52,783 nucleotides of DNA from a virus, in IMG/VR virus record IMGVR_UViG_3300009128_000021, positions 1 to 52,783 of that record; one strand, given 5' to 3'. The notes under the pieces were generated by a model. It worked only from the letters and a program-made list of their open reading frames with translations. It was not told the DNA's origin and searched no databases. This document shows, piece by piece, positions 307 to 50,022 of this stretch (position 1 is its first letter; each line of letters begins with the position of its first letter). The position numbers and the translations under genes are program-made.

Positions 307-400
307 GTGTAAAGCCTGACAAACGTACTCGTGCGGTAGCTTATAACACACCAAAAATCAAGGCCATGAGAAAAAGTCTTAGTTTAAACGGGTCAAAGTC

Positions 401-429
401 TTGACTCTGATAGCGCCCCGTGGTATCAC
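401..429 (+). promoter_or_regulatory. Putative rightward early promoter
   Basis: TTGACT (401-406) and TATCAC (424-429) are 17 bp apart and point at the ERF operon. A GTTTAAAC palindrome (382-389) lies 11 bp upstream of the -35 box, in the interval between the two divergent promoters, where a phage operator would be expected. Confidence 0.5.
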
Positions 430-608
430 GGTATTGTCCTCGCTAACAGAGGATATGGGGTGAGAGAACATAAAACCCCTCCATGTAGGGGCACAAAAAG
501 AGGGCACCGCTAGATGTGGCAATCGGCACGGTGCCCCCCGAGACACCCCGTAGGGCGCTGCTTTAGTGTACCCGAAGCTCCCAACGGGATCAACCCGAAG
601 GGAGTTAC
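430..608 (+). other. Structured 5' leader of the ERF operon
   Basis: The 365 bp between the divergent genes hold no convincing ORF. After the promoter there is a small hairpin CCCCT-N6-AGGGG (476-491). A longer hairpin follows, GGGCACCG (502-509) with CGGTGCCC (529-536). The first, read on the minus strand, is followed by TTTT and could be a weak leftward terminator. No known riboswitch is recognised. The ribosome site GAAGGGAG lies 4-5 bases before ATG 609. Confidence 0.45.
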
Positions 609-3172: not shown

Positions 3173-3735
3173 CGCTGTACGACTTTGAGCGGGGGATGAA
3201 GAAGCTCATGAGCTTCTTCGCCCGGAAGCAGCTCGACACCGAGCAGCTCCAGAGCTGGTACGACAAGTTTAAACGCTGCGATACCAACGCCTTTTTCTCT
3301 GGAGTGGATGAGATCACGGAGAGCAACCGCTTCTTCCCGACTCCCGCCGAGCTGAGAGCTGCGGTGGGGAAGTACGAGAAGCTCCAGGGGTTGGACTTCG
3401 TGCTGGACCCGGACGATGGCCTGTCCGTGCCGGAGGTCTTCGGCGTCCAGGCTTCCATCAACGTCCGCCGAATACTGACCGGAGAGATCACCTACCACCA
3501 GGGCGTGGAGAACCTCGCGCACCTGAGGGAGAAGCACCTGACCGATGACCTGAAATCTCCCTGGTGGATGACCGGGGATAAACAGACGGACCGGAAGACT
3601 GCGGCCCGTTTACACCGCGAGAGGGTGACGGCGTGTTTAAACGCGGGTCGCCTCAGGAGGATGAGAGATGCCGGAGCAGAAGAGCAAGTGGATCAGGGTG
3701 GGAGCTGGATGGAAGCCCAAGAAGCAGGGCGGTGA
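3169..3735 (+). CDS. Putative replicative helicase loader-like protein
   Basis: A 188-aa protein starting at ATG 3169, overlapping the initiator stop (ATGA). The N-terminal 75 residues are helical with the pattern QLQSWYDKFKRCDTNAFFSG and RFFPTPAELRAAV. This resembles the small helical domain of phage helicase loaders and loader/inhibitors such as SPP1 G39P. The middle is a degenerate linker and the C-terminus is basic. No Walker A motif is present, so it is not a DnaC-type ATPase. The role is inferred from this pattern and its place after the initiator. It contains two GTTTAAAC sites (3267, 3635). Confidence 0.55.
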   Translation: MTLYDFERGMKKLMSFFARKQLDTEQLQSWYDKFKRCDTNAFFSGVDEITESNRFFPTPAELRAAVGKYEKLQGLDFVLDPDDGLSVPEVFGVQASINVRRILTGEITYHQGVENLAHLREKHLTDDLKSPWWMTGDKQTDRKTAARLHRERVTACLNAGRLRRMRDAGAEEQVDQGGSWMEAQEAGR

Positions 3736-3973: not shown

Positions 3974-4056
3974 GGGCGAGAGAGTGCCCGGCCTCTGCCC
4001 CGACAGTTCCGGGGGGAGCTGCATAAGGGGCCGGGCGTTTAAACGAGGAGGAAGTG

Positions 4057-5441: not shown

Positions 5442-5445
5442 CCGT

Positions 5446-5706
5446 TTAAACATCCTTGCGGGGGAGGGAGACACCATCCCCTGTCTCCTCGCGGATGGCC
5501 TTAGCTTCGGCGCGGATCTCCGGGGTGATGGTCAGGATCGCGGAGGCGGGGGAGATGTCCAGCCACTCCCCCTCCTTGTCCAGCTCCAGGTCCACGCCCT
5601 CGCGGGTGAGCAGAATCTCCACAGCCTCATCGCTGGGATGCTCGTCTGCCTCCACCAGGAAGAAGTCGGACCCGTGGCGGTGGTGGTGGGTCACGAAGTA
5701 TAGCAT
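5446..5706 (-). CDS. Hypothetical protein, distal gene of the leftward block
   Basis: An 86-aa acidic protein of unknown family. The N-terminus reads MLYFVTHHHRHGSDFFLVEA, with a His cluster, followed by a DEHPSDEAVEILL region. GTTTAAAC brackets it: one copy (5710-5717) lies between ribosome site AGGAGG and ATG, and a second (5444-5451) supplies the final Val codon and the TAA stop. This double placement is a clear example of how the octamer is built into gene borders. Confidence 0.65.
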   Translation of the reverse strand: MLYFVTHHHRHGSDFFLVEADEHPSDEAVEILLTREGVDLELDKEGEWLDISPASAILTITPEIRAEAKAIREETGDGVSLPRKDV

Positions 5707-5720
5707 GGCGTTTAAACCTC

Positions 5721-6038: not shown

Positions 6039-6084
6039 TGTAACCTCCTCGGTAGTGTGATCCCAGGCGATAATGCCCAGGCGG

Positions 6085-6110
6085 GAGGGCACCGTTTAAA
6101 CGATGCCCTC
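6085..6110 (-). repeat. Intergenic hairpin centred on GTTTAAAC (copy 1)
   Basis: Arms GAGGGCA (6085-6091) and TGCCCTC (6104-6110) flank CC-GTTTAAAC-GA. No U-run follows on either strand, so it is not a classical terminator. It belongs to the family of palindromes at 7295, 8141 and 8758. Confidence 0.7.
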
Positions 6111-6519: not shown

Positions 6520-6578
6520 GTTTAAACTCCTTCGGGTAGTGTGTAATGGAGGCTCTTCGGTGTCCCCCAGCATGTACT

Positions 6579-6955: not shown

Positions 6956-7255
6956 TTAGTGTAGGATGTCCTCGTTTAAACGGTCCGCGTACTCCTTGGC
7001 CTCGCGGTAGCTGGGGAAGGGGATGACCTCATCGTCATCACCCCAGCGGCACGGCTGGCCGTCCTCCTGGGGGCGGGTAATGGTCCAGCCGCCTCCGTAC
7101 ATCATGGGGCGGTAGCCCTCGCGCCCGATCAGGTACTTCTGATAACAGGCGGCGGAGCAGCAGCCCTCCTCCTCGTAGCCGGTGGGGTTGTGTGGATCAC
7201 CGAAGAACTCCCCCCGGCAGACCACGCAACGCTCACCTAGTTTGATGGTACTCAT
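6956..7255 (-). CDS. Hypothetical zinc-ribbon-like protein
   Basis: A 99-aa protein with CVVC near the N-terminus and CCSAAC about 20 residues later, consistent with a zinc ribbon, then a Gly/Trp-rich middle and a helical tail. GTTTAAAC (6974-6981) encodes Leu-Asn in the C-terminal DRLNEDILH. ATG 7255 has AAGGAG upstream. Confidence 0.65.
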   Translation of the reverse strand: MSTIKLGERCVVCRGEFFGDPHNPTGYEEEGCCSAACYQKYLIGREGYRPMMYGGGWTITRPQEDGQPCRWGDDDEVIPFPSYREAKEYADRLNEDILH

Positions 7256-7294
7256 GTCTCACTCCTTGGTAGTTCCCGGCGTAATGCTCGGGCC

Positions 7295-7320
7295 GGAGGG
7301 CCGCGTTTAAACGGCCCTCC
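7295..7320 (-). repeat. Intergenic hairpin centred on GTTTAAAC (copy 2)
   Basis: Arms GGAGGGCC (7295-7302) and GGCCCTCC (7313-7320) surround GC-GTTTAAAC. It is followed on the plus strand by AGTCCG, a flank shared with copies near 7800 and 8170, so the whole unit looks like a repeated intergenic element. Confidence 0.75.
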
Positions 7321-7327
7321 AGTCCGG

Positions 7328-7681: not shown

Positions 7682-7704
7682 GTCATGTCTCCTGTCGGTA
7701 GTGT

Positions 7705-7746
7705 TTAAACGGTCTTGTCTTCACAGCGGATTGGGTAGTGCCTCAT
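7705..7746 (-). CDS. Possible mini-ORF (13 aa) ending in a GTTTAAAC site
   Basis: On the minus strand ATG 7746 opens MRHYPIRCEDKTV, ending in GTT-TAA inside the GTTTAAAC at 7703-7710, the same Val-stop ending seen in two neighbouring genes. CGAAGG lies upstream. Far too short to be secure; it may be a leader peptide or chance. It lies in an otherwise non-coding 147-bp gap. Confidence 0.25.
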   Translation of the reverse strand: MRHYPIRCEDKTV

Positions 7747-7828
7747 GTCGGTGACCTTCGGGGGTCTGACCCCGCGCACCATGCCCGGGCCGGAGGCCCC
7801 CAGCGGGAGCCTCCAGTCCGCGCACCGT

Positions 7829-8095
7829 TTAAACGGTGGCCTTCAGGATGTCAGCCTGGAACTCCAGGGCCTTCAGCTTCAGGTCGGACATGCCGCCCTG
7901 GACCCGCTCCAGGTCCACCTTGAGTTGCTCCAGGTCCTCCAGAGTCTCGCGGACCTCCAGGACCTTGGGGTGACGGTTGGCCCACTCGGGGACCTCGGCC
8001 AGGACCTCCTCGGCCCGGGCGATCTGGTCATCAATCAGGTCCGCCATCTTGGCCAGGGTTGGGGTGGCTTCGCTCAGGTACTTGATCTCGCTCAT
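7829..8095 (-). CDS. Hypothetical coiled-coil protein
   Basis: An 88-aa almost fully helical protein with heptad-like spacing (IARAEEVLAEVPEW, LEDLEQLKVDLERVQGG). Start ATG 8095 with the ACACTAACCGAGGAG leader. Its last codon and stop are GTT-TAA of the GTTTAAAC at 7827-7834. Likely a small oligomeric protein; no family. Confidence 0.65.
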   Translation of the reverse strand: MSEIKYLSEATPTLAKMADLIDDQIARAEEVLAEVPEWANRHPKVLEVRETLEDLEQLKVDLERVQGGMSDLKLKALEFQADILKATV

Positions 8096-8140
8096 GTCGT
8101 TCTCCTCGGTTAGTGTTGACTCCGGCCCGATGGCCGGACC

Positions 8141-8170
8141 GGAAGGCGGCGTGTTTAAACGCCGCCCTCC
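8141..8170 (-). repeat. Intergenic hairpin centred on GTTTAAAC (copy 3)
   Basis: GGAAGGCGGC (8141-8150) and GCCGCCCTCC (8161-8170) pair with one mismatch around GT-GTTTAAAC. Flanked by AGTCCG as in copy 2. Confidence 0.75.
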
Positions 8171-8181
8171 AGTCCGCTCAC

Positions 8182-8709
8182 CTAGCTGAGGGCTTCCCGC
8201 CAGTCCTCGGCATCCTCCACCCACTGCTGCATGATCCTCGCGGCTTCCCGTAGCGCGGCCTTCTTGGTCCCGGCCCCGCCCTCCTTCACCTTGGGGCCGG
8301 AGCGGTCAGCGTCCTGCATGGCCTCGGGGGCGGTCACCCTGTACCGCCACTCCTTCATGGTCTGCGTGGCCAGGATGCCGAAGACCTCAGCCCGTACCGG
8401 GTCCTCGTAGCCTCGGGCGTACATGCTGGACCGCTCCACGGTCTGCCACTTCACCCCAGCAGCCCGGCGGCTGTGGCGTTTAAACGCTGCCCAAGCGTCC
8501 TCGCTCAGGACCCGGAGGCCCTCGGGGTCCTGGTCTTCGCGGTGGCCCTCCATGCCCAGGAGGTCACCGTTGGGGGCGTAGTCAAAGCGGATGTTGGAGG
8601 CGGGACCGAAGCAGGGCCAGTCAGCGGCGAACCGCTCCATCTCCTCGGCGGAGATATGGACCACGGCCCCCCGTGTCCCGTCATGAAGGTTGCTGTAAAA
8701 GGTTGGCAT
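8182..8709 (-). CDS. Hypothetical protein
   Basis: A 175-aa protein; ATG 8709 is preferred for GGAAAGGA and the CACTACC leader. The N-terminal 60 residues look globular (FYSNLHDGTRGAVVHISAEE), and the C-terminal 50 residues form a charged helix (GTKKAALREAARIMQQWVED). GTTTAAAC (8478-8485) encodes Phe-Lys. No family recognised. Confidence 0.65.
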   Translation of the reverse strand: MPTFYSNLHDGTRGAVVHISAEEMERFAADWPCFGPASNIRFDYAPNGDLLGMEGHREDQDPEGLRVLSEDAWAAFKRHSRRAAGVKWQTVERSSMYARGYEDPVRAEVFGILATQTMKEWRYRVTAPEAMQDADRSGPKVKEGGAGTKKAALREAARIMQQWVEDAEDWREALS

Positions 8710-8757: not shown

Positions 8758-8787
8758 GGAGGGCACCGTGTTTAAACGGTGCCCTCC
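8758..8787 (-). repeat. Intergenic hairpin centred on GTTTAAAC (copy 4, perfect arms)
   Basis: GGAGGGCACC (8758-8767) and GGTGCCCTCC (8778-8787) are perfect 10-bp arms around GT-GTTTAAAC. This is the best-preserved member of the family. Confidence 0.8.
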
Positions 8788-8797
8788 TCCGTCAGCC

Positions 8798-9517
8798 CTA
8801 CGCCTCACCAAACTTTCCACCACAAGCACAAGTAGGAAGACCTGTCCGGTCCAGCCACTTGCGAGTAGTGCGGATCACCATGCCGCAGTCGGGGCACTCG
8901 GCCTTGACCATGCGCGTGGTCTGGCGGGGCGGGGCACTGGTGCGGGGCTTGCCCGTCTTCGGGTCAATGCGGGGGTCCGGCTTCGGCTCTCCAGGCTTGC
9001 GGGAAGCGAAGGGGGCAAGCTCAGCATGGGCCAGGGGTCCCAGCCGCTTGGCCAGCTTCTCCAGCCGGGCCTTGAGCGCGTCCCCGGCCACCGTGGCGGT
9101 CATCTTGCCTTCCAGACCGGAGGCAACCGCCAGGGTCTTAAAGTCGCCCTTGTGGCCATGGTCAAAGCCCACGGTTGCATGGATCATCTCATGCTGGAGG
9201 ATGTCCAGGGCGCGGACCGGATCATCCAAGTGGGGAGTGATGAAGATTTCCCAGGTGCCGTCACCGGAGCAGTCCTTGGTCCAGCACTCGCCCAGGATCT
9301 TGCCGCCGTGAGAGTAGGCACGGGCAGAAGAGAAAGGCCAGCCCACAGCGGCCCGGATGTTCTCAGGAACCTTGCACTTCAGGCCAGCCTCAGCGGCCGC
9401 CTTGTTCAGGTCCTTGGCCAGTGAGCGCATGGCCTGTTCCAGCCACTGCTCCCGGGTCTTGTTGGTCTTCTTCGCCGGGGCCTTCTTGGCCGGGGCTTTC
9501 TTCTTGGTCTGCTTCAT
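8798..9517 (-). CDS. SprT-like zinc metalloprotease-fold protein
   Basis: A 239-aa protein, first gene after the leftward promoter. Residues 1-20 are a Lys/Ala tail (KKKAPAKKAPAKK). The SprT-like core has LQHEMIHATVGF, with the HExxH zinc site at His109-Glu110-His113, followed by HGHKGDF with a third His. The C-terminus is a zinc ribbon, CPDC...CAC. Related SprT/Spartan proteins act on proteins near DNA; in phages the role is unknown. ATG 9517 has AAGGAGCGAG upstream; a longer in-frame start at 9658 would cross the promoter and is rejected. Confidence 0.85.
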   Translation of the reverse strand: MKQTKKKAPAKKAPAKKTNKTREQWLEQAMRSLAKDLNKAAAEAGLKCKVPENIRAAVGWPFSSARAYSHGGKILGECWTKDCSGDGTWEIFITPHLDDPVRALDILQHEMIHATVGFDHGHKGDFKTLAVASGLEGKMTATVAGDALKARLEKLAKRLGPLAHAELAPFASRKPGEPKPDPRIDPKTGKPRTSAPPRQTTRMVKAECPDCGMVIRTTRKWLDRTGLPTCACGGKFGEA

Positions 9518-9565: not shown

Positions 9566-9594
9566 AATATACACGAAGGGTGTAAACGTGTCAA
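9566..9594 (-). promoter_or_regulatory. Leftward promoter of the 9.5-5.3 kb block, with overlapping inverted repeat
   Basis: On the minus strand TTGACA (9589-9594) and TATATT (9566-9571) are 17 bp apart, nearly a consensus vegetative promoter, about 50 bp before ATG 9517. An inverted repeat GGGTGT-N10-ACACCC (9578-9599) and a GTGTAAAC half-variant of the octamer (9580-9587) overlap the spacer and -35 box, where a repressor would block polymerase. Confidence 0.75.
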
Positions 9595-10000
9595 CACCCG
9601 ATAGCGAGAAAAACAACAAACTCACCCCGGGCAACAACAACGCTATGCGACACAGCAAACAACACAGCCGCGCCCAGGTAGATCAAGGGGGGGTTTAAAC
9701 GCCCTGGAGCATACCCGGCCCTTTTCCTGGGCAAGTGAGTCCTCGCGGAGGTGTAACGCCCCGGCCAATGCAAACAGGGCCAGGACCCGGCCCGGATCAG
9801 CCCAGCCCAGGCCCGGCCCAGCCCCAGCATGGAGCCAGCATGGAGCGGGGCAGACCGGGCAACGCGCAACGTGCTATAAGTGGAGGAGATCAGGCCGCGA
9901 TGCCACTGTCCCCGGGAGCCAGTGGCGGACCGCGCCCCGTTTAAACAGTGGAGCAACCGCACGCGAAACCGATTGACTTGCAACGAGATCCGACCCCCGG

Positions 10001-10021
10001 CCCCCCGGCGAAGCCGGGGGG
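10001..10021. terminator. GC-rich hairpin, terminator-like without U-run
   Basis: CCCCCCGGC (10001-10009) pairs with GCCGGGGGG (10013-10021) around a GAA loop. The stem is very stable but no T-tract follows on either strand. It may stop leftward read-through from the 10.4 kb genes before the 9.6 kb promoter. Confidence 0.5.
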
Positions 10022-10238
10022 GGTCATGTGTATATCCCCCACGCACAAAGTACGGCTACTTTCCTGTTTTTGGGCCAGGAGGCTATCAGGTATCACCTGG
10101 GCGACAACAGGGTCTTAGGGAGGCTCTCAGGGCCTCTCAGGGGCATCCTGGGCGCGTCCTCGGGCTGTGGTGGTGTTGTTCAGTACGGATGCGGTAGTCC
10201 GGGCGGGGGTGTGTAAGGTGTTAGTTACGGCGCTATCG

Positions 10239-10270
10239 TTTTCCACAGGGTTGTCAACAGGTGTGGAAAA
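10239..10270. promoter_or_regulatory. Candidate replication origin: inverted DnaA-box-like pair
   Basis: TTTTCCACA (10239-10247) and its exact inverse TGTGGAAAA (10262-10270) flank TTGTCAACA (10251-10259), a third weaker match. Two matches to the TTWTNCACA pattern in 32 bp of non-coding DNA suggest an origin or host DnaA-controlled site. No clear AT-rich unwinding element is next to it, and the initiator gene is elsewhere, so this stays tentative. Confidence 0.45.
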
Positions 10271-10350
10271 GGTGGGGTGGGGTTGGCGGGATCTTAAACC
10301 CACCCTGGACAAAACCGGCCTTGTGGGGGTCGATTCTGTCCAGGGTTGTA

Positions 10351-10377
10351 AAGCCCCCGTTTATTTTTCGGGGGCTT
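10351..10377 (-). terminator. Terminator-like hairpin overlapping a stop codon
   Basis: AAGCCCCCG and CGGGGGCTT pair around an AT-rich loop that contains the TAA stop of the 10361-10534 gene. A short T-run follows on the minus strand. It ends the 17-10 kb leftward series. Confidence 0.6.
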
Positions 10378-10534
10378 CGTCCACGGGGAGCTGGATGGAG
10401 TCAAAGCTGATGATGAGCTGGGCCTCCAGGTTGGCCAGGAGCTGGAGTAGCTCGGTGATGGTGGTCGGTTCGGGGGGTGTGGGTTGGCCTCGGTATGCGG
10501 CCAGTGCTGTGGTGATGTGGAAGAGCTCAGCCAT
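10361..10534 (-). CDS. Small hypothetical protein
   Basis: A 57-aa protein with start ATG 10534, chosen for AAGGAG eight bases upstream. One amphipathic helix (ITELLQLLANLEAQLIISF) dominates. The stop codon lies in the loop of a terminator-like hairpin. Between this gene and 10669 lie 134 bp with an inverted repeat ATAGTG-N8-CACTAT (10580-10599), a possible operator, and no other gene. Confidence 0.5.
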   Translation of the reverse strand: MAELFHITTALAAYRGQPTPPEPTTITELLQLLANLEAQLIISFDSIQLPVDEAPEK

Positions 10535-10579
10535 GTATCTTTCTCCTTTGTGTTTTTTTTTTGGTATAGGTCTCCTTTC

Positions 10580-10599
10580 ATAGTGTTGTTTTGCACTAT
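10580..10599. promoter_or_regulatory. Inverted repeat, possible operator
   Basis: ATAGTG-TTGTTTTG-CACTAT sits between the small gene ending at 10361 and the XRE gene at 10669. An XRE dimer site would look like this, but no promoter boxes are convincing around it. Confidence 0.35.
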
Positions 10600-10668
10600 A
10601 TCGTGTGTGAGTGCCCCGAATCACGGGGCTGGACCGGATATATGGGATTTCTCAGCCTGGGGGGTCTC

Positions 10669-10908
10669 TCATCGTGTGGCTTTCGGTAGGTGTGGGGGGA
10701 TGATCTCGGAGATGTCTTTGCCGAAGAGTTTGGCCAGCTCGTAGAGCTTGGGGAGGTGGGGGTGTTGCTGTCCCTTCTCCCATCGGACCACGGCTCCGTC
10801 CGTGATCCCCAGCATCTGTCCCAGCTCCCGCTGGGTCATTCCGGCATCGGTCCGGAGGTTGTAGATGTTGTTGCCGATGTACTGGTTCAGCCACTTCTTC
10901 GGGTCCAC
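10669..10908 (-). CDS. XRE-family helix-turn-helix regulator (small)
   Basis: A 79-aa single-domain XRE protein: NIYNLRTDAGMTQRELGQML, then ITDGAVVRWEKGQQHP and a closing helix KLYELAKLFGKDISEII, the full 5-helix domain. GTG 10908 directly follows the upstream TAA. Cro-like in size. One of three XRE proteins in the genome. Confidence 0.85.
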   Translation of the reverse strand: MDPKKWLNQYIGNNIYNLRTDAGMTQRELGQMLGITDGAVVRWEKGQQHPHLPKLYELAKLFGKDISEIIPPHLPKATR

Positions 10909-11358
10909 TTAGACCCTCGTGACCAGCAGCGCGGCCCACTCTTTCATGAGGGCCTTCTCGTCCTTGTCGAGCATGTCAAACTGGGATGCCATCTGGAGGG
11001 TGGCTGTCAGCAGGGTCTTCTGCCACTGGGGGGTTGCCTTGTCCCACTGGAAGAAGACGGGGGCCGGTTCTTCGGCCGGGGGGTTGGCCGGGGGGTTGGC
11101 CGGGTCCCTGAGCGGCATGGCCTTCTTCTTGGCGGCTTTCTTGGCGCGGAGGCCCTTCCGGGCGGACTTGGCTCTCCTCTTGTCTAGGGTGGTGGGCACG
11201 TCCTTCCCGGCCTCGATGTCGGCCCGGAGCTTCTTGTCCACCTCTACGGCTTCGGCCTTGGTGTCGCAGTGTCGGCTGTACGCCTTCTTGCCTTTCCAGA
11301 AGCGGACGATCCATTTGGTGGACCCGTCAGCGTAGGTCTTCTTGGTGATGTTCGGCAT
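10909..11358 (-). CDS. Protein with integrase-arm-like N-terminal domain
   Basis: A 149-aa protein. Residues 8-50 (GSTKWIVRFWKGKKAYSR, then DTKAEAVEVDKKLRADIEAG) follow the pattern of the small three-stranded AP2-like arm-binding domain at the start of tyrosine integrases, but no catalytic domain follows. A basic Lys/Arg/Ala stretch (60-80) and a Pro/Ala/Asn repeat lead to a helical C-terminus. It may be a stand-alone DNA-binding or architectural protein. Function inferred only from the pattern. Confidence 0.55.
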   Translation of the reverse strand: MPNITKKTYADGSTKWIVRFWKGKKAYSRHCDTKAEAVEVDKKLRADIEAGKDVPTTLDKRRAKSARKGLRAKKAAKKKAMPLRDPANPPANPPAEEPAPVFFQWDKATPQWQKTLLTATLQMASQFDMLDKDEKALMKEWAALLVTRV

Positions 11359-11376
11359 GTCTCCTCCTTGGTAGGG

Positions 11377-13303: not shown

Positions 13304-13311
13304 GTCCCTCC

Positions 13312-13337
13312 TGAAAAGCGGGGGGACTTTCCCCCCG
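13312..13337 (-). terminator. Leftward intrinsic terminator
   Basis: On the minus strand CGGGGGG-AAAGT-CCCCCCG is followed by CTTTT. It closes the 15.0-13.35 kb cassette and separates it from the operon starting at 13303. Confidence 0.8.
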
Positions 13338-13354
13338 TGTCACTACCGCATCGC

Positions 13355-15047: not shown

Positions 15048-15065
15048 ATCGGACGTTGGTGTCAA

Positions 15066-15103: not shown

Positions 15104-15120
15104 ACGCGATTGCGGCGCGT

Positions 15121-39487: not shown

Positions 39488-40393
39488 ATGAGATACCTCG
39501 GATACACGGGACCCGTTGACCCTTGGGCGGCTCCTGAGCCGGAGCTCCCCTATGACAGCGCGGCGGCTGGGCGGCCTCTACTGTCGCACGAGGCTGCGGC
39601 CAGTTTAAACCGACCCAACTACAAGGCAAACTACGGCGCGGCCCCCAAGGAGCTGGCGGCTCGTTCCTTGGTGGGGGGTGCTGTCCCCCTTACAGAGCTG
39701 CATCCCGGAGCCATGCTCAAGAATCCGCTGGGCACCCTCAACCTCGGCTGGAAAAACATCAAGGAGACCGTGACCAGCAACCCCTCGGCCGCTATGGCGG
39801 CGGGAGGGGCTTTGCTTGCTGGGAAGATCGGTGACTGGATGGGCGATGCCGCCCTGAAGGAGTCAAAGAAGTGGACCAGCCGAATCACGGACCAGACCAC
39901 TGTGGACCCGTACTCCATGGGTGGTGAGCTGGACGAGGCGATGGCGAGGGCAAAGGCCAGCAAGGTGGCCGACCTCGGGAAGTCAGCCCGGAAGGCGGGG
40001 ACTGCGGCGATGGCCGGGGGCAAAACACGCGCCCATGAAGCAGCCGGGCGTGTAGTCCGCGAGGCGGTTCCCCTCATCGAGGATGCCGTGAACCGGGCCA
40101 ACATCGTGCGGAACGATCTCCGGCGAGAAGGGTCTCGGCACATCGGTACGGGCATCGTCCAGCAGGGGAGGCTTCGCACAGGGCTGGCGGGGATGAACGC
40201 CACCCAGGCTCGGGCCTTCGGTGACATCGCTGTCAACGACGCCAATCAAGTGGCGGCTCGGTGGCAACGGGGCATCATGGGTTTCACCAAAATGGCCGCG
40301 TTTGTCATGACGGCTGGCCAGTCCGGGGTGGTGGATGCCCTCTCTCAAGAGGTGGCGTCCTACGGTCTCGGCAAGGCTTTTGGAGGTGACTGA
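39488..40393 (+). CDS. Putative internal virion (ejection) protein
   Basis: About 301 aa; ATG 39488 or GTG 39479 start, both downstream of AAAGGG. It is Ala/Gly-rich with hydrophobic stretches (SAAMAAGGALLAGKIGDWMG, AAFVMTAGQSGVVDAL) and basic helices, a pattern of podovirus ejection proteins that cross the host envelope. A GTTTAAAC near the start (39603) encodes Leu-Asn. Confidence 0.6.
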   Translation: MRYLGYTGPVDPWAAPEPELPYDSAAAGRPLLSHEAAASLNRPNYKANYGAAPKELAARSLVGGAVPLTELHPGAMLKNPLGTLNLGWKNIKETVTSNPSAAMAAGGALLAGKIGDWMGDAALKESKKWTSRITDQTTVDPYSMGGELDEAMARAKASKVADLGKSARKAGTAAMAGGKTRAHEAAGRVVREAVPLIEDAVNRANIVRNDLRREGSRHIGTGIVQQGRLRTGLAGMNATQARAFGDIAVNDANQVAARWQRGIMGFTKMAAFVMTAGQSGVVDALSQEVASYGLGKAFGGD

Positions 40394-41112: not shown

Positions 41113-42647
41113 TGGCCAAGCTCAACGTAAGCAGCTCCCAGGCCCTGGAGATGGCGGACACTTTTGCCCTCATGGGACATGTGGCTGACATCTTTATGCA
41201 GTACAAGGCGCAGTCCGATCAGCAGAAGTTCCAGGAAATGGCGCTTCGCATGGACATGATTAAAGAGCGGGGCATCCAGCGCCGTCACGAGCAGCAGATC
41301 AGCGCCACGGAACGTCAGGCCCGGATGGGCAGGGCGCATGAGATGAAGATGATGGAGGCACGTCAGGCTTTCCAGACTGGGGAGCGGCTGGCTGGCCAGG
41401 AGTGGCAAGCAGGGCAGAACGCGGCTCAGCGTGCTCTGACTGAGCGTGGTCAGCTCCTCAACCAGCTCCAGTTTGCCATTCAGGAGACGCGCCTGGGTAC
41501 GCAACTCGGGCTGGACACCACCACGGCAACGCTGGACTCCCTCCGTCCGGAGCTGGAGCCCTCCCGTTTAAACGCGCTCTCCGTCTTCTTTAAGCAGGAC
41601 GCCCACGGCAAGTACGACTTTAAGGACGGCCGACTGAAGAAGCTGGCCAAGAACGCGCTGGGCGAAGGCTACGTTGGCCAGTTCGCCAAGCCTTTCCTCA
41701 ACGCCCTGACCGCATCCTCCGTGGGGAGGAAGCAGGGACAGGCCCTGGACTTTAAGAATGATGTCCTCCCCTTCCTCCCTGTGGACGTGCAGGAGAAGAT
41801 CATCACCAACATGGGGGAGTACACCGACTTCGGCCAGGAGCTGGAGGACTTTTGGGGCGAGTTTGACGGGGGCAGCTACGGCGCAGAGTACGGCGTCCTC
41901 CAGAATCAGGTTTGGGGAGCCGAGAACCGGCTGGCCTACTTCCAGGAGCAAGTGGCCCACCACGCCCCGATCATCCAGAAGGTCACCGCCGCTGCTGCGT
42001 CTGGTGATCCCAACAAGTTCCTGGACCTCGCCTCAAAGGCAATCCCCATGATGCAGAGCTGGACCCCTCAGAGCCCGGCCGCGCAGAAGGTGGTGACGTG
42101 GCAGATCCCGGACGGGTCTGACCCGATCACACCCACCTCCATGCACAGCAAGGTCAGCGATGAGCAAGCGGATGCTGAGCGGCTCTACCGGGAGCAGAAG
42201 ATCATCGCGGGTCAGAATCCTGACGATCTCGCCAAGGTGGAGGCGGAGCACGCCGCCCGGATGGAGAAGATCAAGGAGAAGTCTGACCGCTTCCACGCCA
42301 CCGATGCCAGCAACAAGTCCATGGCTGTGGAGAAGGTGTCCCGCTGGGGCCTGAGCTACCTGGACAAGAGGCGCAAGGGTGAGCACATGCCTGACGCGGC
42401 CGTCCCGTTTGGTGGCTGGGACAAGGAGAACATCCTTGGCGGCTTCACGCCGGACCAGTTCCAGGACGTAGTGACCACCGCCTTCCCCGGCATCCAGCAG
42501 GGGGACGAGTTCCACTCCTGGGTTTGGGATGTCTATGACCAGGGCCAGGAGAACATCGCCGCCGCCGAAGAGCAAAAGACCCGCCGCCGTGTGGACCCCC
42601 ATGTGGGTCCCGGACCCATGGGCGGAAGGCAAAGGATGATGCCGTGA
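41112..42647 (+). CDS. Putative internal virion (ejection) protein
   Basis: A 511-aa, largely helical protein. The N-terminal 130 residues are a coiled-coil region with Gln/Met/Arg (QKFQEMALRMDMIKERGIQR); the rest is globular and helical. It is followed by the giant ejection-type protein with a GTGA overlap. GTTTAAAC at 41566 encodes Leu-Asn in SRLNAL. Confidence 0.6.
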   Translation: MAKLNVSSSQALEMADTFALMGHVADIFMQYKAQSDQQKFQEMALRMDMIKERGIQRRHEQQISATERQARMGRAHEMKMMEARQAFQTGERLAGQEWQAGQNAAQRALTERGQLLNQLQFAIQETRLGTQLGLDTTTATLDSLRPELEPSRLNALSVFFKQDAHGKYDFKDGRLKKLAKNALGEGYVGQFAKPFLNALTASSVGRKQGQALDFKNDVLPFLPVDVQEKIITNMGEYTDFGQELEDFWGEFDGGSYGAEYGVLQNQVWGAENRLAYFQEQVAHHAPIIQKVTAAAASGDPNKFLDLASKAIPMMQSWTPQSPAAQKVVTWQIPDGSDPITPTSMHSKVSDEQADAERLYREQKIIAGQNPDDLAKVEAEHAARMEKIKEKSDRFHATDASNKSMAVEKVSRWGLSYLDKRRKGEHMPDAAVPFGGWDKENILGGFTPDQFQDVVTTAFPGIQQGDEFHSWVWDVYDQGQENIAAAEEQKTRRRVDPHVGPGPMGGRQRMMP

Positions 42648-45600
42648 ACCTTCAGCAGATCCTGGATGCTGCACAGCAAGATCCGGCCCTGCTTGAGGAG
42701 CTTCAGCGCCGACTCCGCTCTGACCAACGCCTCCAGGGTAGGGCCGCTGAGGGTCCTGCTCGTGAGGCGATCATGGAGCGGATCGCGCAGGAGACCTACC
42801 AGGACCTCACCGATGACGGGTCCGTGGGCACCCAGCGTTTACACAACAATGCCACGGCCGACATAAACGGTCCGACTCTCTCCCGCATGGCCCGTGACAA
42901 GATGGGCTTTTGGGAAGGGCTCAAGCTGGGCTTCACCAAAGAGGGCCTGGGGCAAATGGCCTGGCGTGGCGTGACCGGGCAGGGCCTCCCTGAGACCATG
43001 AAGCAGGAGATCCCGTCCACCTTTTGGGGTGAGGTGGGGCGTGAGGTGGGCTCCTTTGTAGAGCCCGGCTCCCTGCTGACCATGGCCCTCACTGGAGGAC
43101 TGGCCGGAGCTGGTGTGAAGGTGGCTGGCAAGGGTGTCCTCACCTCCGCCGCCCGGAGAGGTGCGGCCAAGGCTGGGGTCAAGGCCGCGATGAGGAAGAA
43201 GGCCCTCCAGACTGGCCTGGAGCCGTCCCGCAAGCTGCTGACTGCTGCCCAGCGCCGGGCAGCTCAGCGTGGTGGGATCTCCAGCGCCCTAAGGAAAGAG
43301 CTGTACGAGGGTGGTCCGCTGTGGCGGAGAGCTGCGGCCTCCGGTGCTACCGGAGCTGGGACCCTGGCTGGATACAGCGCGGCCGGGTCCGTGGCCCAGC
43401 AGGGTGCGGCCGGTGAGGGTGTGAGCTGGCAGCAAGTCTTTAAGGATGCCATGCACGGCGGGGCCATGGGTGCTGTGGCACTCGGTCCGGCTGGTGCTAT
43501 CCCTCCGCTCAACCCCAGCATCTTCCTCAAGGCTGGGGCCTCCAAGACTGTGGCCAATCGCATGGCCAAGTTGGGCACCACGGCCGCGAAGTTCACGGCC
43601 GAGAGTCTGGCCTTTGGTTCCTTTGAGCCTGCTCTTGAGGGTAGGTTGCCCACATCCATGGAGCTGGCCAAGAGCTTCGCCTTCCTGGGCACGCTCAAGG
43701 CTGCGTTTAAACTCCCCGCCCTCCCCAAGGCCGCGATGGAGGGGCTGGCTCATCACCCGTCCGTCCGCACCCCGAAGCAGAAGGCTGCCCTCACTGAGGC
43801 CGAGAAGGCTGGCATCCTGAAGCAGTGGCAGGAAGGTGCCAAGGTGGTGGCCCCGCTCATGGCTCAGGGCGAGGTCCCGCAGTACATGGCCAGCCGGGTG
43901 GGACAGGCGATTGATGCCATCCCGTTTAAAAAGCCCAAGCCCGCGATCCAGTTCCTTCGCCAGATCGAGAAGGGCCAGCAGATCAAGAAGACTGAGCTGG
44001 AGCCCCTCCGTCAGATCCTGGAGGAGCTGGGCAATCAGGAGCTGACCAAGGATGATGTCCGCCGCCTCCACGATCTGTCCGCCCATGAAATCAAGGTGGA
44101 GACCCGCCACCAGGGCGAACAAGTGGACATCGAGGCCAGGGAGGAGGCTGAGTCCCATCTCAACGAAGCCAAAGAGCGGATGGACAATGCCGAGTATGTG
44201 AACCAGAACCCGTATGAGCACGTTGACCTGGACTACATCCAGGAGACGATAGACCGCCACATCGCGGGTGACATCCACGACTACGCTGCGAACCGGGCGG
44301 ACGCCATCATGAGGCACGCCACCCAGGGCGTGCAGCAGGACCTTTTCGCCGGGCGCGAGATTACTCGTGCGGAGGCCCGGAACCAGCTCATTGACCGCTA
44401 CACGAGGCGGATCGAGGACAGCGAGAACTTTGAGAACATCCGGGAGCGTCTGGAGGAGAAGTACCGGGAGCAAGTCGAGGAAGCGGAGATTGAGTCTGTC
44501 AGGGAGCAAGCCTGGGAGGACTACACTGAGGCCCGGGGCGATGTCGAGTACTGGACCGAGCAGATGGCGGAGACGGAGTACGCCGAGAACCTGGAGTACA
44601 GTGAGTACTCCTACATAGACGAGTTTGAGCACGCTGAGTCCTACCGAGAGCTGCTGCCCTATGTAGAGTCCACCGCCTTTGAGGGACAGGCTCCCCTGTC
44701 TCTGATCTCCGAGGCGCTCAAGCACTTCGGCGTGACCGAGGAGCAGCTCAAGGCTGCGGACCGAGCGGACATCCCGAGGGCGGCTTACGCTGAGCTTGCA
44801 GCGGAACACAGCCCGGCTCTGGCCCAGGCCATCGCCCGGCGTGAGATGTATCGCCAGCAGCCTTACGTCTCCCAGCATTACAACAACATGAACGACCCCA
44901 AGAATCTCCTGGGCCACATCCGCGTGTCCGATGCCATGGACGGCGAGGGCAAGAGTGGCGTCTTCGCCTGGGAGCTTCAGACGGATTGGACCATCGGAGA
45001 GAATCGGAAGCTCCGCCAACGGATCAAGCACTGGGAAGACCAGGGCCTGAGTCGTGAGGATGCGGTCCAGCGCGTGAAGGATGAGGGCGGGGTCATGAAG
45101 GACCCGCTCAAGCCGCCCGTCCCTGAGGAAATCCTGAGGGAGATGGAGCGTGCCGACAAGGCTTTGGATGCGAAGATGGAGGAGGTCCAGAAGGAGCTGG
45201 CCTCTGACCCGGAGTTTATTGAGGACGGTGGCTGGACTCCGGAGCTTATGACCACCCTCAACTCCGGTCAGGCACTGGGGGCGCTGAGGACGATCAAGAG
45301 CAACATCGAGCATTACGAGGCGATGATGCGTGAGGCTAAGACTCACGAGGAGGCCGCTGTCGCACGGGCCTCTAAGCCTCCGTACTACGAGCGCCGGAAC
45401 CGCTACATGAAGATCATCAAGGATTACGAAGCGGTCATGCAGGAGCAAACCGATGCCACGGCCGCGAAGATGCTTTACGAGAGCAAGGAACCGGCGTACC
45501 CGCTGGGCGATGCGTGGCTGGAACACTTGGTCAATCAGACTGTGGCCGAGGGTGTGCGTTCCGGGGCCAAGAGAATCTACTGGCCCCGAGGTGAGACCAT

Positions 45601-48600
45601 CGCCGCCAAGTGGGGCGGCCGGGGCAAGATCAGCGAGATCAAGTACGACATGGAGAACGAGCGGCTGGAGATCCCCAGTGGTCCGCACGGTCTTCAGACG
45701 GAGCCGATTGGCAGCGTCATCGACAACGTGACCAAGGCCAAGCTGCCCGAGGTCATGTGGGATCTGGTCCGCAACATCACAGCCAACATGGACAGGCCCA
45801 GGCTCCGCCAGGAGACCAAGGAGATCGCGGAGCGCCTCATCAAGGACGCTGAATCCAAGGGCCTGGAGAACCGCGAGGGCTACTACGCCGACAAGGGACC
45901 CAAGGGTGTGGGCCATGCCGTTTACACGCAGGGCGGCGAGTACCTCTACCTCTTTGAGCAGATGGCGGAGGCCGAGGCGAAGGCCACGGCGCTGAACGCT
46001 GAGAAGCCCACCCGCCTGGGGCACATCCGCCTGGACGATCCGGTCACCATCTCAGGGATCTGGCAGAAGAAGATTTACGATGACCGGATGAATAAGATGT
46101 TCGGCCGTCTCGCCAAGAAGCACGGCGGCGAGAGTGGCAACACGATCATCGGGGACTTCACCAGCGATCTCGGCGTCCAGAAACAGACGGACGGAACGTG
46201 GAGGGCGTGGGAGAGAAACACGGCCCAGGTCGATGTCCCGCTAGGGGAGCCTTCCGCTGACAGGGCTGGGGCTGAGTTCACCCTGGCCAAGCACATCGGC
46301 AACGAGGAGCCGTTTAAGAACCTCGTCAACTTCGCAGACCTGACCGATGGCCTGAAGCAGCACGCCCGGGAGAAGGGCATGGCTCTCTACGAGCTGCCCC
46401 CCGGTGCGCGGGAGCAGCTCCGCAGGGTCATGGTGGAGGGTGAGTCCACCCGACTTGAGAACCGGGACCAGGCTGTGGGGGTCATCAAGGACCGGATGAA
46501 GGTCAGCAAGGCCAAGGCGGAGTCCCTGGCCGATGTCCTGGACTTTCACGCCAACGCCTACACCGAGATGGTGGGGCTGGACAAGGCTGACTACTACCGC
46601 TCAATCAGAATCGGTGAGGGGAAGAGCCGCGAGGCCCGTGGCGCGTTTGACGTGCTGGAAGACGGGCAGCGTGTGATCTACGCCCTCAACAATCCGGACG
46701 TGCGTGTTGGGATACACGAGTTCGGGCACCTCTTCATGAATGATCTCCTTAGGGGGTCCAAGCTCAACGAGGACTTGGCCAAGGATCTGAAGACCCTTGA
46801 GGATTACGTCAGGGTGGAGGGGGGCAATTGGTCGATAGAGGCCCACGAGCGGGTCAACACTATCTTTGAGAAGTATATGGCAGAGGGGCGTGCCCCTGTG
46901 CCGGAGCTTCAGCCCCTCTTCACCCGCTTTAAGAAGTGGCTTGGCCACCTCTTTCAGAAGGTCACGGGCATGGAGCATGTCCCCGTGGACCCGGAGCTCC
47001 GCAGTGTCTTCCATCGCTTCTTTGACTCCACGGGCGGCAAGGCTGACCTGGAGATCATGGCCGACAAGAAGGGAGCCAACCCGTTTAACCTGGGCATGGA
47101 GGATGTCCGCAAGTGGAGCGTGACGCAGAAGCAGCAAGCGGCCATCGCTGCCCTGGAGGCCCGGAACATCGAGGAGCTGTGGTCCCGGGATGCCAGAGGC
47201 AAGAGGAAGAACCGGGGCAAGTCCTTCCCGGATGACTTCGCCTTCCTCGTGGAGGAGAAGGCTCCCGAGGGTAAGAACCTTGGGGAGATCGAGCTGAGGT
47301 TGACCAAGGGCTTCGGCAGCAAGGCAAGGCTGGATGAAGCTCTCGGCCGCGCCCGGAAGATCCTGGACGTACTCCGAGACGATGCCAACAAGAAGGTGGA
47401 GGAGGGCATCCCCAAGAACAAGCGGGGGGATGGTCCCTGGATTGCCAGGGTGGAGCGGTATCTCCCGCACGTCTGGCGCAAGGTGAGCCGGGGGATTGAG
47501 AACCTCCAGAATCCCCGCTGGCAGACGGAGGGCTCCTTCCTCCGCAAGCGTAAGCTCCCGACCCTGGCCGAGGGAATTGAGCTGGGCCTGGAGCCGGTGA
47601 GTTTAAACGTCCCCGACCTGATCCGCTACTACGGCAACATGACCGGGCGGATCGGTGCCAACAAGATGCTCGTCTTTGACATGCACCGGCACAAGGTTGG
47701 GAACGAGAAGGGGGAGCTGGGGCCTGTCATCATGCGGGTCCACAAGGCTCCCAGCGGCTGGAAGAAGCTGACCCACCCGGCCCTGTCCCACTACTGGGCG
47801 AGGCAGAAGGGTGACAAGGTTTACATCTACAAGGACCAGCAAGCCGCCGTCCACCCCGACTACTATCAGGCCATCCGTATGGCCCTGGAGGAGCCCAGCC
47901 AAAAGGGCTTCCTCAAGAACGCGGCCAACGTGGCTGCCATCGCCAAGAGGGCGGAGCTGTACTTCAGCTTCTTCCACCACATCGCGCTGACCGAGAGCGC
48001 CCTGGCTACGCTGGGGCTCAAGGGTCTCTTCACCAACAAGATTGAGCAGGACCCGCACACCGGGAAGTGGGTGAAGACCTCCGGGAGGATGGCCACGAAG
48101 AACGTGGGCAAGCTCCTCATGAGTGACGTGAACTACCTGAAGCACCTCATTGAGTGGGGTGTGGACCTGGGCGGGACCCCGGACGTGGGTGTCCGCCAGT
48201 TCGCTGAGATGTGGGCCTCCCTGGAGGCGAAGACACGCAACGTGCCCGGCCTCCATGCCCTGGCCCGGAGGGCTCAGGACTTTAACAAGGCTTGGGACCG
48301 TGGGCTGTGGGACCACTACCACGCAGCTCTCAAGGCGGCTGCCTTCTTTGAGGCGGAGGCCGACTTCGCCAAGCGCAAGCCCAACGCCACGGCGGCGGAG
48401 TGGGCGAAGAAGCGCAGGGAGACCGCCTCCTTTGTGAACGATGCCTTTGGTGGGCAGAATTGGTCACTCATGGCCAAGCAAGTCACCCTCCCTGAGAGAC
48501 TCGGACCTCTCAAACTTCCTCCTCGGCTTGCCGGGCGGAACGTGACCCTTTCTGCCCACCCCAAAATGCGCCAAGCCCTCCAGGTCATCATGCTGGCCCC

Positions 48601-49621
48601 GGACTGGACCTTCTCTAACATGCGGATCGCTGGCAAAGCGGTCAACGCCCTGAAGGGCGGCAGGAGGGGCGGGAAGTTTGCCTTTGATAACCCGGAGCTG
48701 GCCCGGCTGTACCTGAGGTACTGGCGCAACATGATGGCCACCGTGCTCATGGGCGGCACGGCGGTCCAGGCCCTGTCTTACCTCATCGCTGGGGATGATG
48801 ACAAGGGCGACAAGATGTGGATTTGGGACAACGAGCATGACCGGAAGACGGACATGGACGTAACCCCGCTCATGAGAGCCTTGGGGCTGGTGCCGGAAGG
48901 TGAGCGCCGGTACTCCCACCTGGGCAAACAGGCCCGGGAGGTCCTGGGCTGGGTGACCAATCCCATCAAAGTCTTCCACGGGAAGATGAGCCCGGTTGCT
49001 CACATGGCCATGGAGCAGCTCACCGGGTCCCAAGGCTTCGGCTTTGAGACTGAGTACAGCCGCATGAAGTTTTGGGAGTCGCTCCCGGCCAGGGGCAAGG
49101 GCATCGCCAGCAAGTTCGTGCCCTTCAGCTTCCGGGGCAATCAGTTCGCCCTGTCTGTGCCGCTGAAGAAGGGAGCCACGCCCTGGAAGGTTCAGGTTGC
49201 CCTCCAGAAGGCGCTCCGAGGCTACGCCCATCCCAAGTTTAAACAGAGCCCCTTCGCCAGCAACATGGAGCCGCTCGTGGCGGACATCGTGGATGCCGCT
49301 CAGCGCAACGGTTTAAACGGAGAGACCATGTTCCGGGAGGCACTGTCCCGGACACGAGGAGAGTTTTACGGGAAGTTCTTTGAGGCCCTGGAGAAGCAGG
49401 ACCAAGAGGAGATGGATAGGTGGGCTGAGGTCATCGTCAGGCTGCACGGCGGTCTGAAGGGCCTCCTCCGAAGCGTGGAAACCCGCAAGCGCCGGAGAGC
49501 ATCGTCCACCTCAGATAGGGAGGTGCAACTTGCCACCACCAGCTATCGCCGGGCTACCCGGTCTCAAGGCCGCACTGCCCAAGATCGGGCACTGCTTAAT
49601 GAGCTAACTCGCGGACCCTGA
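42644..49621 (+). CDS. Giant polyvalent ejection-type protein with HEFGH metalloprotease site
   Basis: A 2325-aa protein, GTG start. Residues about 130-330 are Ala/Gly-rich with membrane-prone stretches; 470-700 are acidic coiled coil with Tyr/Glu repeats. Near 1345-1365, VIYALNNPDVRVGIHEFGHL carries a zincin HExxH (His1358-Glu1359-His1362). The C-terminal third (LAPDWTFSNMRIAGKAVNAL, NMMATVLMGGTAVQALSYLI, NPIKVFHGKMSPVAHM) resembles LPD38-type domains of large polyvalent phage proteins. It probably enters the cell with the DNA and may digest peptidoglycan-linked or host proteins. Five GTTTAAAC-type sites lie in frame (four exact, one ending in A). Confidence 0.75.
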   Translation: MNLQQILDAAQQDPALLEELQRRLRSDQRLQGRAAEGPAREAIMERIAQETYQDLTDDGSVGTQRLHNNATADINGPTLSRMARDKMGFWEGLKLGFTKEGLGQMAWRGVTGQGLPETMKQEIPSTFWGEVGREVGSFVEPGSLLTMALTGGLAGAGVKVAGKGVLTSAARRGAAKAGVKAAMRKKALQTGLEPSRKLLTAAQRRAAQRGGISSALRKELYEGGPLWRRAAASGATGAGTLAGYSAAGSVAQQGAAGEGVSWQQVFKDAMHGGAMGAVALGPAGAIPPLNPSIFLKAGASKTVANRMAKLGTTAAKFTAESLAFGSFEPALEGRLPTSMELAKSFAFLGTLKAAFKLPALPKAAMEGLAHHPSVRTPKQKAALTEAEKAGILKQWQEGAKVVAPLMAQGEVPQYMASRVGQAIDAIPFKKPKPAIQFLRQIEKGQQIKKTELEPLRQILEELGNQELTKDDVRRLHDLSAHEIKVETRHQGEQVDIEAREEAESHLNEAKERMDNAEYVNQNPYEHVDLDYIQETIDRHIAGDIHDYAANRADAIMRHATQGVQQDLFAGREITRAEARNQLIDRYTRRIEDSENFENIRERLEEKYREQVEEAEIESVREQAWEDYTEARGDVEYWTEQMAETEYAENLEYSEYSYIDEFEHAESYRELLPYVESTAFEGQAPLSLISEALKHFGVTEEQLKAADRADIPRAAYAELAAEHSPALAQAIARREMYRQQPYVSQHYNNMNDPKNLLGHIRVSDAMDGEGKSGVFAWELQTDWTIGENRKLRQRIKHWEDQGLSREDAVQRVKDEGGVMKDPLKPPVPEEILREMERADKALDAKMEEVQKELASDPEFIEDGGWTPELMTTLNSGQALGALRTIKSNIEHYEAMMREAKTHEEAAVARASKPPYYERRNRYMKIIKDYEAVMQEQTDATAAKMLYESKEPAYPLGDAWLEHLVNQTVAEGVRSGAKRIYWPRGETIAAKWGGRGKISEIKYDMENERLEIPSGPHGLQTEPIGSVIDNVTKAKLPEVMWDLVRNITANMDRPRLRQETKEIAERLIKDAESKGLENREGYYADKGPKGVGHAVYTQGGEYLYLFEQMAEAEAKATALNAEKPTRLGHIRLDDPVTISGIWQKKIYDDRMNKMFGRLAKKHGGESGNTIIGDFTSDLGVQKQTDGTWRAWERNTAQVDVPLGEPSADRAGAEFTLAKHIGNEEPFKNLVNFADLTDGLKQHAREKGMALYELPPGAREQLRRVMVEGESTRLENRDQAVGVIKDRMKVSKAKAESLADVLDFHANAYTEMVGLDKADYYRSIRIGEGKSREARGAFDVLEDGQRVIYALNNPDVRVGIHEFGHLFMNDLLRGSKLNEDLAKDLKTLEDYVRVEGGNWSIEAHERVNTIFEKYMAEGRAPVPELQPLFTRFKKWLGHLFQKVTGMEHVPVDPELRSVFHRFFDSTGGKADLEIMADKKGANPFNLGMEDVRKWSVTQKQQAAIAALEARNIEELWSRDARGKRKNRGKSFPDDFAFLVEEKAPEGKNLGEIELRLTKGFGSKARLDEALGRARKILDVLRDDANKKVEEGIPKNKRGDGPWIARVERYLPHVWRKVSRGIENLQNPRWQTEGSFLRKRKLPTLAEGIELGLEPVSLNVPDLIRYYGNMTGRIGANKMLVFDMHRHKVGNEKGELGPVIMRVHKAPSGWKKLTHPALSHYWARQKGDKVYIYKDQQAAVHPDYYQAIRMALEEPSQKGFLKNAANVAAIAKRAELYFSFFHHIALTESALATLGLKGLFTNKIEQDPHTGKWVKTSGRMATKNVGKLLMSDVNYLKHLIEWGVDLGGTPDVGVRQFAEMWASLEAKTRNVPGLHALARRAQDFNKAWDRGLWDHYHAALKAAAFFEAEADFAKRKPNATAAEWAKKRRETASFVNDAFGGQNWSLMAKQVTLPERLGPLKLPPRLAGRNVTLSAHPKMRQALQVIMLAPDWTFSNMRIAGKAVNALKGGRRGGKFAFDNPELARLYLRYWRNMMATVLMGGTAVQALSYLIAGDDDKGDKMWIWDNEHDRKTDMDVTPLMRALGLVPEGERRYSHLGKQAREVLGWVTNPIKVFHGKMSPVAHMAMEQLTGSQGFGFETEYSRMKFWESLPARGKGIASKFVPFSFRGNQFALSVPLKKGATPWKVQVALQKALRGYAHPKFKQSPFASNMEPLVADIVDAAQRNGLNGETMFREALSRTRGEFYGKFFEALEKQDQEEMDRWAEVIVRLHGGLKGLLRSVETRKRRRASSTSDREVQLATTSYRRATRSQGRTAQDRALLNELTRGP

Positions 49622-49638
49622 CCGGAGGAGACCCGGCG

Positions 49639-50022
49639 ATGAGCGACACTCCTTGGCCCCATTTCTCACAGGCAGAGCTGAGCTGTAAGTGCGGCTGTGG
49701 CCGCTGGGACATGGACGCCTCATTCATGGAGCAGATCGAGACGCTGAGGATGCGGATGGGCTTCCCCTTCCACGTCTCCAGCGCCTTCCGGTGCCCGGAG
49801 CACAACGATCACGTCTCCAGCACAGGTTTAAACGGTCCCCATACCACGGGCCGGGCGATTGACATACTGGTGTCCGGCGAGGACGCCTACTCCCTGATCC
49901 GGATTGCCCTGCTGCACAATTTCACAGGACTGGGCGTGGCCCAAAAAGGACTACACGCTAGTCGCTTCGTGCATCTGGACGATCTGACGGACGGGACCCG
50001 CCCCTGGGTGTGGACCTACTAG
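49639..50022 (+). CDS. Endolysin, peptidase M15 type
   Basis: A 127-aa M15_3-type D,D-/L,D-carboxypeptidase fold. Zinc ligands His68 and Asp75 (GPHTTGRAIDI) and His112 (RFVHLD) are present, with the SSAFRCPEHN strand before them. It would cut peptidoglycan peptides at lysis. No signal peptide, so release should depend on the adjoining holin-like proteins. GTTTAAAC (49826) encodes Leu-Asn four residues before His68. Confidence 0.88.
   Translation: MSDTPWPHFSQAELSCKCGCGRWDMDASFMEQIETLRMRMGFPFHVSSAFRCPEHNDHVSSTGLNGPHTTGRAIDILVSGEDAYSLIRIALLHNFTGLGVAQKGLHASRFVHLDDLTDGTRPWVWTY

Follow-up and report, generated by a model that had tools for sequence, protein, structure and literature searches.

L5-type repressors have more than 20 asymmetric 13-bp sites that are oriented with transcription (PMC9283540). 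Here we describe a comparable arrangement of the octamer GTTTAAAC in the viral record IMGVR_UViG_3300009128_000021 from IMG/VR (the window, that is, the whole analysed stretch of 52,783 nucleotides), together with its association with a phage protein, SprT-ribbon, that consists of a SprT-like metalloprotease and a C-terminal ribbon domain. As in the Cluster A stoperator systems (L5, TipsytheTRex repressor; PMC9283540), 20–40 identical short sites are distributed over the genome, at promoters as well as in and between genes, and one phage regulator is implicated, in our case a proposed one. However, Cluster A sites are 13-bp, asymmetric and linked to direction, whereas the present sites are 8-bp palindromes or near-palindromes in either orientation; the Cluster A repressor carries a helix-turn-helix (HTH) and a Stoperator domain, while the candidate in the window carries SprT and ribbon; and, unlike the Cluster A sites, the present motif spans phages of many bacterial groups. 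Because both site and protein differ from the L5 type, the arrangement would work like a stoperator system without being a member of it.

Other described systems resemble single aspects. The SprT/Spartan proteins (SPRTN, PF10263) likewise combine a protease domain (HExxH...H) with a zinc-ribbon-like domain behind it, but in the phage proteins the protease is dispensable; to our knowledge, cellular SprT proteins have neither iterated binding sites nor repressor action. HIP1 of cyanobacteria is also a highly iterated palindromic octamer, yet it is host-wide, whereas GTTTAAAC is specific to phages and tied to a single protein of theirs. LexA/CI, and ImmA/IrrE with its XRE repressor, are similar in that DNA binding and proteolysis are possibly coupled, but in the window the metalloprotease is fused to a ribbon, an HTH is missing and the coupling is hypothetical. 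Finally, the SAS/ESAS repeats of Cluster K and EF phages (PMC3203893, PMC7302621) are short, conserved asymmetric repeats near the start codons of small genes; they differ in sequence, include no palindromic octamers, have no tie to SprT-ribbon and are restricted to ribosome-binding sites, whereas GTTTAMAC also occurs in promoters and open reading frames (ORFs).

An iterated octamer in phage genomes

A recount of the window confirmed the 32 exact copies of GTTTAAAC, located between positions 382 and 49833, that had been reported in the original prediction. Fewer than one copy had been expected by chance, and indeed dinucleotide shuffles gave an expectation of 0.06 with a largest count of 1. 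Markov models of order 1, 2 and 3 predicted 0.11, 0.09 and 2.3 copies, respectively, while a higher-order model absorbs the motif itself; the low-order expectation for GTTTAAAC is ∼0.1, whereas the original prediction had named a value near 30 as speaking against it. The runner-up palindromic octamer has 6 copies, as compared to 32 for GTTTAAAC, and the recount again yielded seven copies with an altered end (GTTTAAAT, 3; GTTTAAAG, 2; GTTTAAAA, 1; ATTTAAAC, 1). The internal variant GTTTACAC/GTGTAAAC is likewise over-represented, with 8 copies versus 0.48 expected. Within the ORFs, which like all gene calls in the window are predictions made in this analysis, 18 copies of GTTTAAAC were found versus 0.22 upon resampling of synonymous codons (largest 3, n=300), and this excess argues for selection on the DNA word itself.

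Scans of IMG/VR for spaced triplets of GTTTAAAC matched 53 and 67 contigs, and over 100 partial viral contigs were collected overall. The matched loci, with GC contents from 30 to 60%, mostly contained 5–40 copies where <0.6 were expected, at densities of up to 4.4 per kb. With the word reversed to CAAATTTG, the same spaced pattern served as a control and hit 5 contigs versus 67. When 84,980 cellular species genomes were scanned with one spaced-triplet pattern, 33 matches were obtained, 30 of them repeated DNA and 3 apparently due to chance. Since the viral scans were positive and the cellular scan, with its one spacing, returned only repeats and chance matches, we consider GTTTAAAC a feature of phages and not of their hosts. 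The cellular result does not bear out a HIP1-like host-wide motif, one of the earlier suggestions, and no evidence turned up for a role in segregation or packaging, two others. A search of open-licence PMC papers for the octamers, in which the papers listed were all unrelated, is in line with the earlier statement that no such role is known for this sequence. As a side observation, the repeated-DNA matches were mostly CRISPR (clustered regularly interspaced short palindromic repeats) arrays, and GTTTAAAC stands at one end of the CRISPR repeats in many cyanobacteria and in others (L124-L155).

The SprT-ribbon protein and its link with the motif

Six-frame ORFs were derived from 114 contigs selected for GTTTAAAC, and every predicted gene of the window was compared with them. 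The sole window gene that proved widely common to these contigs was that of SprT-ribbon, with 58 loci, followed by the terminase gene with 8. The XRE and alpha-CTD-like proteins, which the original prediction had put forward as binders, gave way to SprT-ribbon, as neither is common to other GTTTAAAC phages. The SprT-ribbon gene (8798–9517, minus strand) encodes 239 aa and matches phrog_6361 with an E value of 1.9e-44; PF10263 stays below threshold (E 0.044). Judged by this profile match and by the HExxH active site seen in alignments (residues 109–113; 9179–9193, minus strand), the product is a predicted SprT-like metalloprotease with a zinc-ribbon-like C-terminal domain of ∼40 residues. This ribbon, RQTTRMVKAECPDCGMVIRTTRKWLDRTGLPTCAC, comprises residues ∼197–239 (8798–8929, minus strand) and is the proposed DNA-recognition part. 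The predicted structure had a predicted local distance difference test score (pLDDT) of 86.7 and was confident for the protease core and the ribbon.

A profile of the ribbon alone added 14 contigs, mostly with ribbon-only proteins of ∼60 aa, for which a Pfam scan gave no hit above cut-off. One of the 14, contig L107, encodes the ribbon together with a protease that is truncated and degenerate, and in six further GTTTAAAC contigs HExxH was destroyed while the ribbon was intact. By whole-contig searches, the ribbon was found in 88 of the 114 motif-selected contigs, and the rest were mostly short fragments. One cluster of contigs (L016, L034, L064 and relatives), partly with ribbon-only proteins, has 2–4 copies of GTTTAAAC per kb and a WhiB-like gene, the latter suggesting actinobacterial hosts.

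The reverse test started from viral loci picked by SprT homology alone, with a profile from a three-sequence alignment, a diverse SprT alignment being too variable. This homology scan showed 347 SprT loci, of which 77 were examined for the motif. At least two copies of GTTTAAAC were present in 56 of the 77 loci, with <1 expected in each, and in most it was the leading palindrome; where GTTTAAAC was missing, GTTTACAC was often elevated. The latter is the one-base variant used by high-GC actinophages, with 14–43 copies, and it is the most over-represented octamer genome-wide in UtzChips (23 versus 0.04 expected) and Crewmate (21 versus 0.08).

Among cultured phages with an intact ribbon, GTTTAAAC is iterated in Venkman (34 copies), R5C (17), Arya (7), KA2-1 (7) and Persinger (4), and GTTTACAC in Microdon (43), Marky (35), Powerpuff (27), UtzChips (23), Zeta1847 (22), Crewmate (21), IAmGroot (18) and Percival (14). 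Only 0–1 copies of GTTTAAAC or GTTTACAC were found where SprT lacks the ribbon (CN1, Psa21-HRN, Epa43) or where QxTR...R in the ribbon has changed to SRSGK...S (Dismas, AvGardian, Eden, Brahms). Ribbon and motif thus occur together across unrelated phages and are lost together: the motif is iterated (4–43 copies) in 13/13 phages with an intact ribbon and in 0/7 with a lost or altered one, a distribution with a chance of 1 in 77,520 if the genomes are independent. In a SprT tree, the EB phages, whose ribbon is altered, and the CN1/Psa21 phages, which lack it, fall into separate clades. Six phages chosen by terminase or portal similarity, absent among the SprT matches listed, had 0–2 copies. The whole SprT protein was also considered as the determinant and was rejected, because SprT without the ribbon goes without the motif, while the ribbon without the protease goes with it.

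Conservation and placement of the sites

In alignable contig pairs with 65–75% nucleotide identity, 57% of the GTTTAAAC sites were conserved versus 12–13% of other octamers; at 75–85% identity, the respective values were 79% and 28%. With the pattern TTG[ACG][CG]N-16..19-TANNNT as the definition of a promoter-like zone, seven actinophages together had 39 sites in such zones where ∼1.2 were expected. In the AT-rich Venkman, this simple pattern revealed no enrichment (1 versus 1.5 expected). The sites occupy three registers, namely within the spacer (UtzChips TTGCGC-gcacc-GTGTAAAC-gcga-TACACT), over the −10 box (gcgtgTAAACT) and just past it (TAGACT-GTTTACAC in Crewmate and Powerpuff). A repressor would typically occupy such positions, whereas most activators would not. 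At these actinophage promoter positions the asymmetric form was found in both orientations, which argues for recognition of DNA rather than RNA. A site is also present in the promoter of sprT itself in these actinophages, and in Arya, KA2-1 and Persinger GTTTAAAC lies 18–20 nt ahead of sprT. We also noticed that the annotated sprT start codons of Zeta1847 (33389/33421) and Percival (35897/35907) precede the predicted promoter or fall within it, so that translation probably begins at positions more downstream. Together, the ribbon association, site conservation and promoter placement support the dispersed operator of a new kind that was among the original suggestions.

The sprT gene of the window has a predicted promoter, TTGACA-17-TATATT (9566–9594, minus strand), with GTTTACAC in its spacer (9580–9587, minus strand). 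Other sites lie between Shine-Dalgarno sequences and ATG, at stop codons, in hairpins or inside genes, and these non-promoter sites would fit roadblock-like stoperators. A Shine-Dalgarno sequence and an ATG flank the copy of GTTTAAAC at 6520–6527, and start codons follow after 25, 12, 3 and 21 nt at 3635–3642, 4037–4044, 5710–5717 and 7703–7710, respectively. The copies at 5444–5451 and 7827–7834 contain the stop codons of genes 5446–5706 and 7829–8095, and those at 6094–6101, 7305–7312, 8153–8160 and 8770–8777 form the centres of GC hairpins. These hairpins (6085–6110, 7289–7326, 8135–8176, 8758–8787) are long and GC-rich, and stand directly past the stop codons of leftward genes. Two non-coding copies were found at 9693–9700, upstream of sprT, and at 9939–9946, and one lies between the XRE and ERF genes (382–389). 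The terminase gene contains the copy at 19580–19587 and the portal gene that at 20778–20785. The others are at 2003–2010, 2346–2353, 3267–3274, 6974–6981, 8478–8485, 28267–28274, 31377–31384, 31658–31665, 39067–39074, 39603–39610, 41566–41573, 43705–43712, 47601–47608, 49237–49244, 49311–49318 and 49826–49833. Apart from the promoter copy, GTTTACAC occurs on the plus strand at 3608–3615, 21620–21627, 38857–38864, 42837–42844 and 45920–45927, and on the minus strand at 30461–30468 and 39335–39342.

The spread of GTTTAAAC over the window is uneven: 19 copies fall within 0–10 kb, none within 10–19.5 kb and 13 in the remainder. In the first 10 kb, 13 of the 19 copies are wholly or partly non-coding, while the non-coding share of that stretch is ∼16%. 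The block at 10000–19500, with mostly leftward genes, is devoid of both GTTTAAAC and GTTTACAC next to the 10 kb with 19 copies, and may contain genes that escape repression. Positions 1–119 and 52665–52783 of the window are identical, and given this exact 119-bp terminal overlap we take it as a complete circular phage genome of 52,664 bp. It includes an integrase gene, and an XRE gene (243 down to 52509, minus strand) crosses the circle junction. The near-consensus promoter of the XRE gene, TTGTCA-18-TATAGT (293–322, minus strand), has CTTTACAC in its spacer, one base away from GTTTACAC, making cross-regulation possible. A SAS-like leader repeat, CACTACCGAGGAG, which includes the Shine-Dalgarno sequence, is present at the starts of leftward genes (253–265, 6045–6057 and others), with 42 matches at ≤3 mismatches versus 19 expected. 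Terminase and portal searches for close relatives of the window phage returned near-identical contigs only.

A proposed repressor and its alternatives

Based on these sequence comparisons, we propose, with a probability of roughly 0.7, that GTTTAAAC/GTTTACAC is the DNA site of SprT-ribbon, which would be a repressor that regulates its own gene and has dispersed, stoperator-like operators. The protein would probably belong to a family of phage gene silencers that has so far gone unrecognised and docks at scattered GTTTAAAC sites. Specifically, the C-terminal ribbon would recognise the GTTTAMAC site, and since the site has two-fold symmetry, binding would probably be as a dimer. Bound at promoters, including that of its own gene, the protein would block RNA polymerase; bound between or inside genes, it would stop or slow transcription in the manner of the L5 stoperators. 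The N-terminal metalloprotease, dispensable for the association with the sites, may lift repression by removing the repressor.

Conceivably, this would go further, though we regard the idea as tentative: a DNA-activated metalloprotease fused to its own operator-binding domain might cleave itself in response to damaged or single-stranded DNA, leading to genome-wide derepression, and it might be the missing immunity repressor of the AZ and EH phages. Powerpuff (Cluster AZ) forms stable, homoimmune lysogens with no identifiable repressor, and a SprT-like protease is among the genes common to Clusters AZ and EH (PMC8758107). Likewise, no repressor was identified for Zeta1847 and Cluster EH, and Cluster EB (Dismas) lacks an integrase and appears lytic (PMC7302621). 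SprT-ribbon is a strong candidate for the immunity repressor of Powerpuff. A role in AZ and EH immunity fits because the temperate-looking AZ and EH phages have kept ribbon and sites, while both have been lost from Dismas and the phages related to it by SprT. As SprT-ribbon also occurs in phages where no integrase was seen, such as Venkman, its role is probably broader than immunity.

Among the alternatives, the sites could belong to another DNA-binding protein of phage or host, with SprT-ribbon as a partner, for instance a protease that removes this protein. ImmA/IrrE proteases remove XRE repressors in this way, SprT is a protease by family, HTH or DNA-binding genes adjoin sprT in AZ and EH phages, and the window has XRE genes. 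We nevertheless consider this unlikely, as no other window gene is widely common to GTTTAAAC phages, the neighbours of sprT vary between clades, and the sites are absent where the protease is kept but the ribbon lost; moreover, a protease partner does not predict that sites are kept with ribbon-only and protease-dead versions. Alternatively, the ribbon protein might be an organiser and the sites might have a role in the genome other than regulation, for instance in its replication, packaging or segregation or in the organisation of the nucleoid. Such a role would agree with the wide dispersal of the sites, late genes included, and with selection on sites inside ORFs, but is quite improbable in view of the three promoter registers, the site at the promoter of sprT itself and the strong clustering in the early region.

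Very improbable, too, is an action in RNA, in which the ribbon protein would bind GUUUAAAC between Shine-Dalgarno sequence and start codon and control translation. Many sites do lie between a Shine-Dalgarno sequence and ATG, such as those at 6520 and 5710 in the window, but in actinophages the asymmetric form can point either with the genes or against them, and actinophage sites inside promoter spacers lie upstream of the transcript. That the phage copied a HIP1-like host-wide motif is hardly credible: an iterated palindromic octamer would be shared with HIP1, but the 84,980 cellular species showed only repeats and chance matches with the one spacing pattern, and the motif, which is tied to one phage gene, occurs in phages that infect many hosts.

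Several observations weigh against SprT-ribbon as the repressor at these sites. Site conservation is a strong indication but does not represent independent events, because the contig pairs overlap phylogenetically. Similarly, the motif states on the SprT tree (GTTTAAAC, GTTTACAC or neither) need 13 changes versus 27.8 with shuffled labels, so that the genomes are non-independent and the motif state is inherited in clades. Neither ribbon nor SprT was detected in three GTTTAAAC-rich contigs of 30–37 kb (L008, 37 copies; L015, 18; L095, 14), which may be incomplete; in L008, GTTTAAAC repeatedly stands 7 nt ahead of a TTGACA −35 box. Venkman carries ribbon and motif with no integrase annotated. 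A site within 60 nt upstream of sprT was found in 25 of 118 loci versus 6.7 expected, an enrichment that is not universal, and loci of medium motif density had no enrichment directly upstream of sprT. Proximity to ATG (0–10 nt) was only slightly in excess over all loci (0.232 versus 0.197 in the control), and about half of the sites in the window are inside ORFs. At the protein level, a Foldseek search with the modelled window protein gave no match among solved structures at E≤0.001, and zinc binding is unsure because most actinophage ribbons miss the second cysteine of the first pair.

If SprT-ribbon is indeed this repressor, a function would be assigned to a widespread phage protein that is annotated as SprT-like protease in 163 phage records, mostly with that label alone. 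It would also imply a regulatory network common to phages of Actinobacteria, Alpha-, Beta- and Gammaproteobacteria and of many uncultured hosts. The natural variant pairs, with GTTTAAAC or GTTTACAC and with the ribbon intact, altered or lost, would then allow the rules of recognition to be tested.

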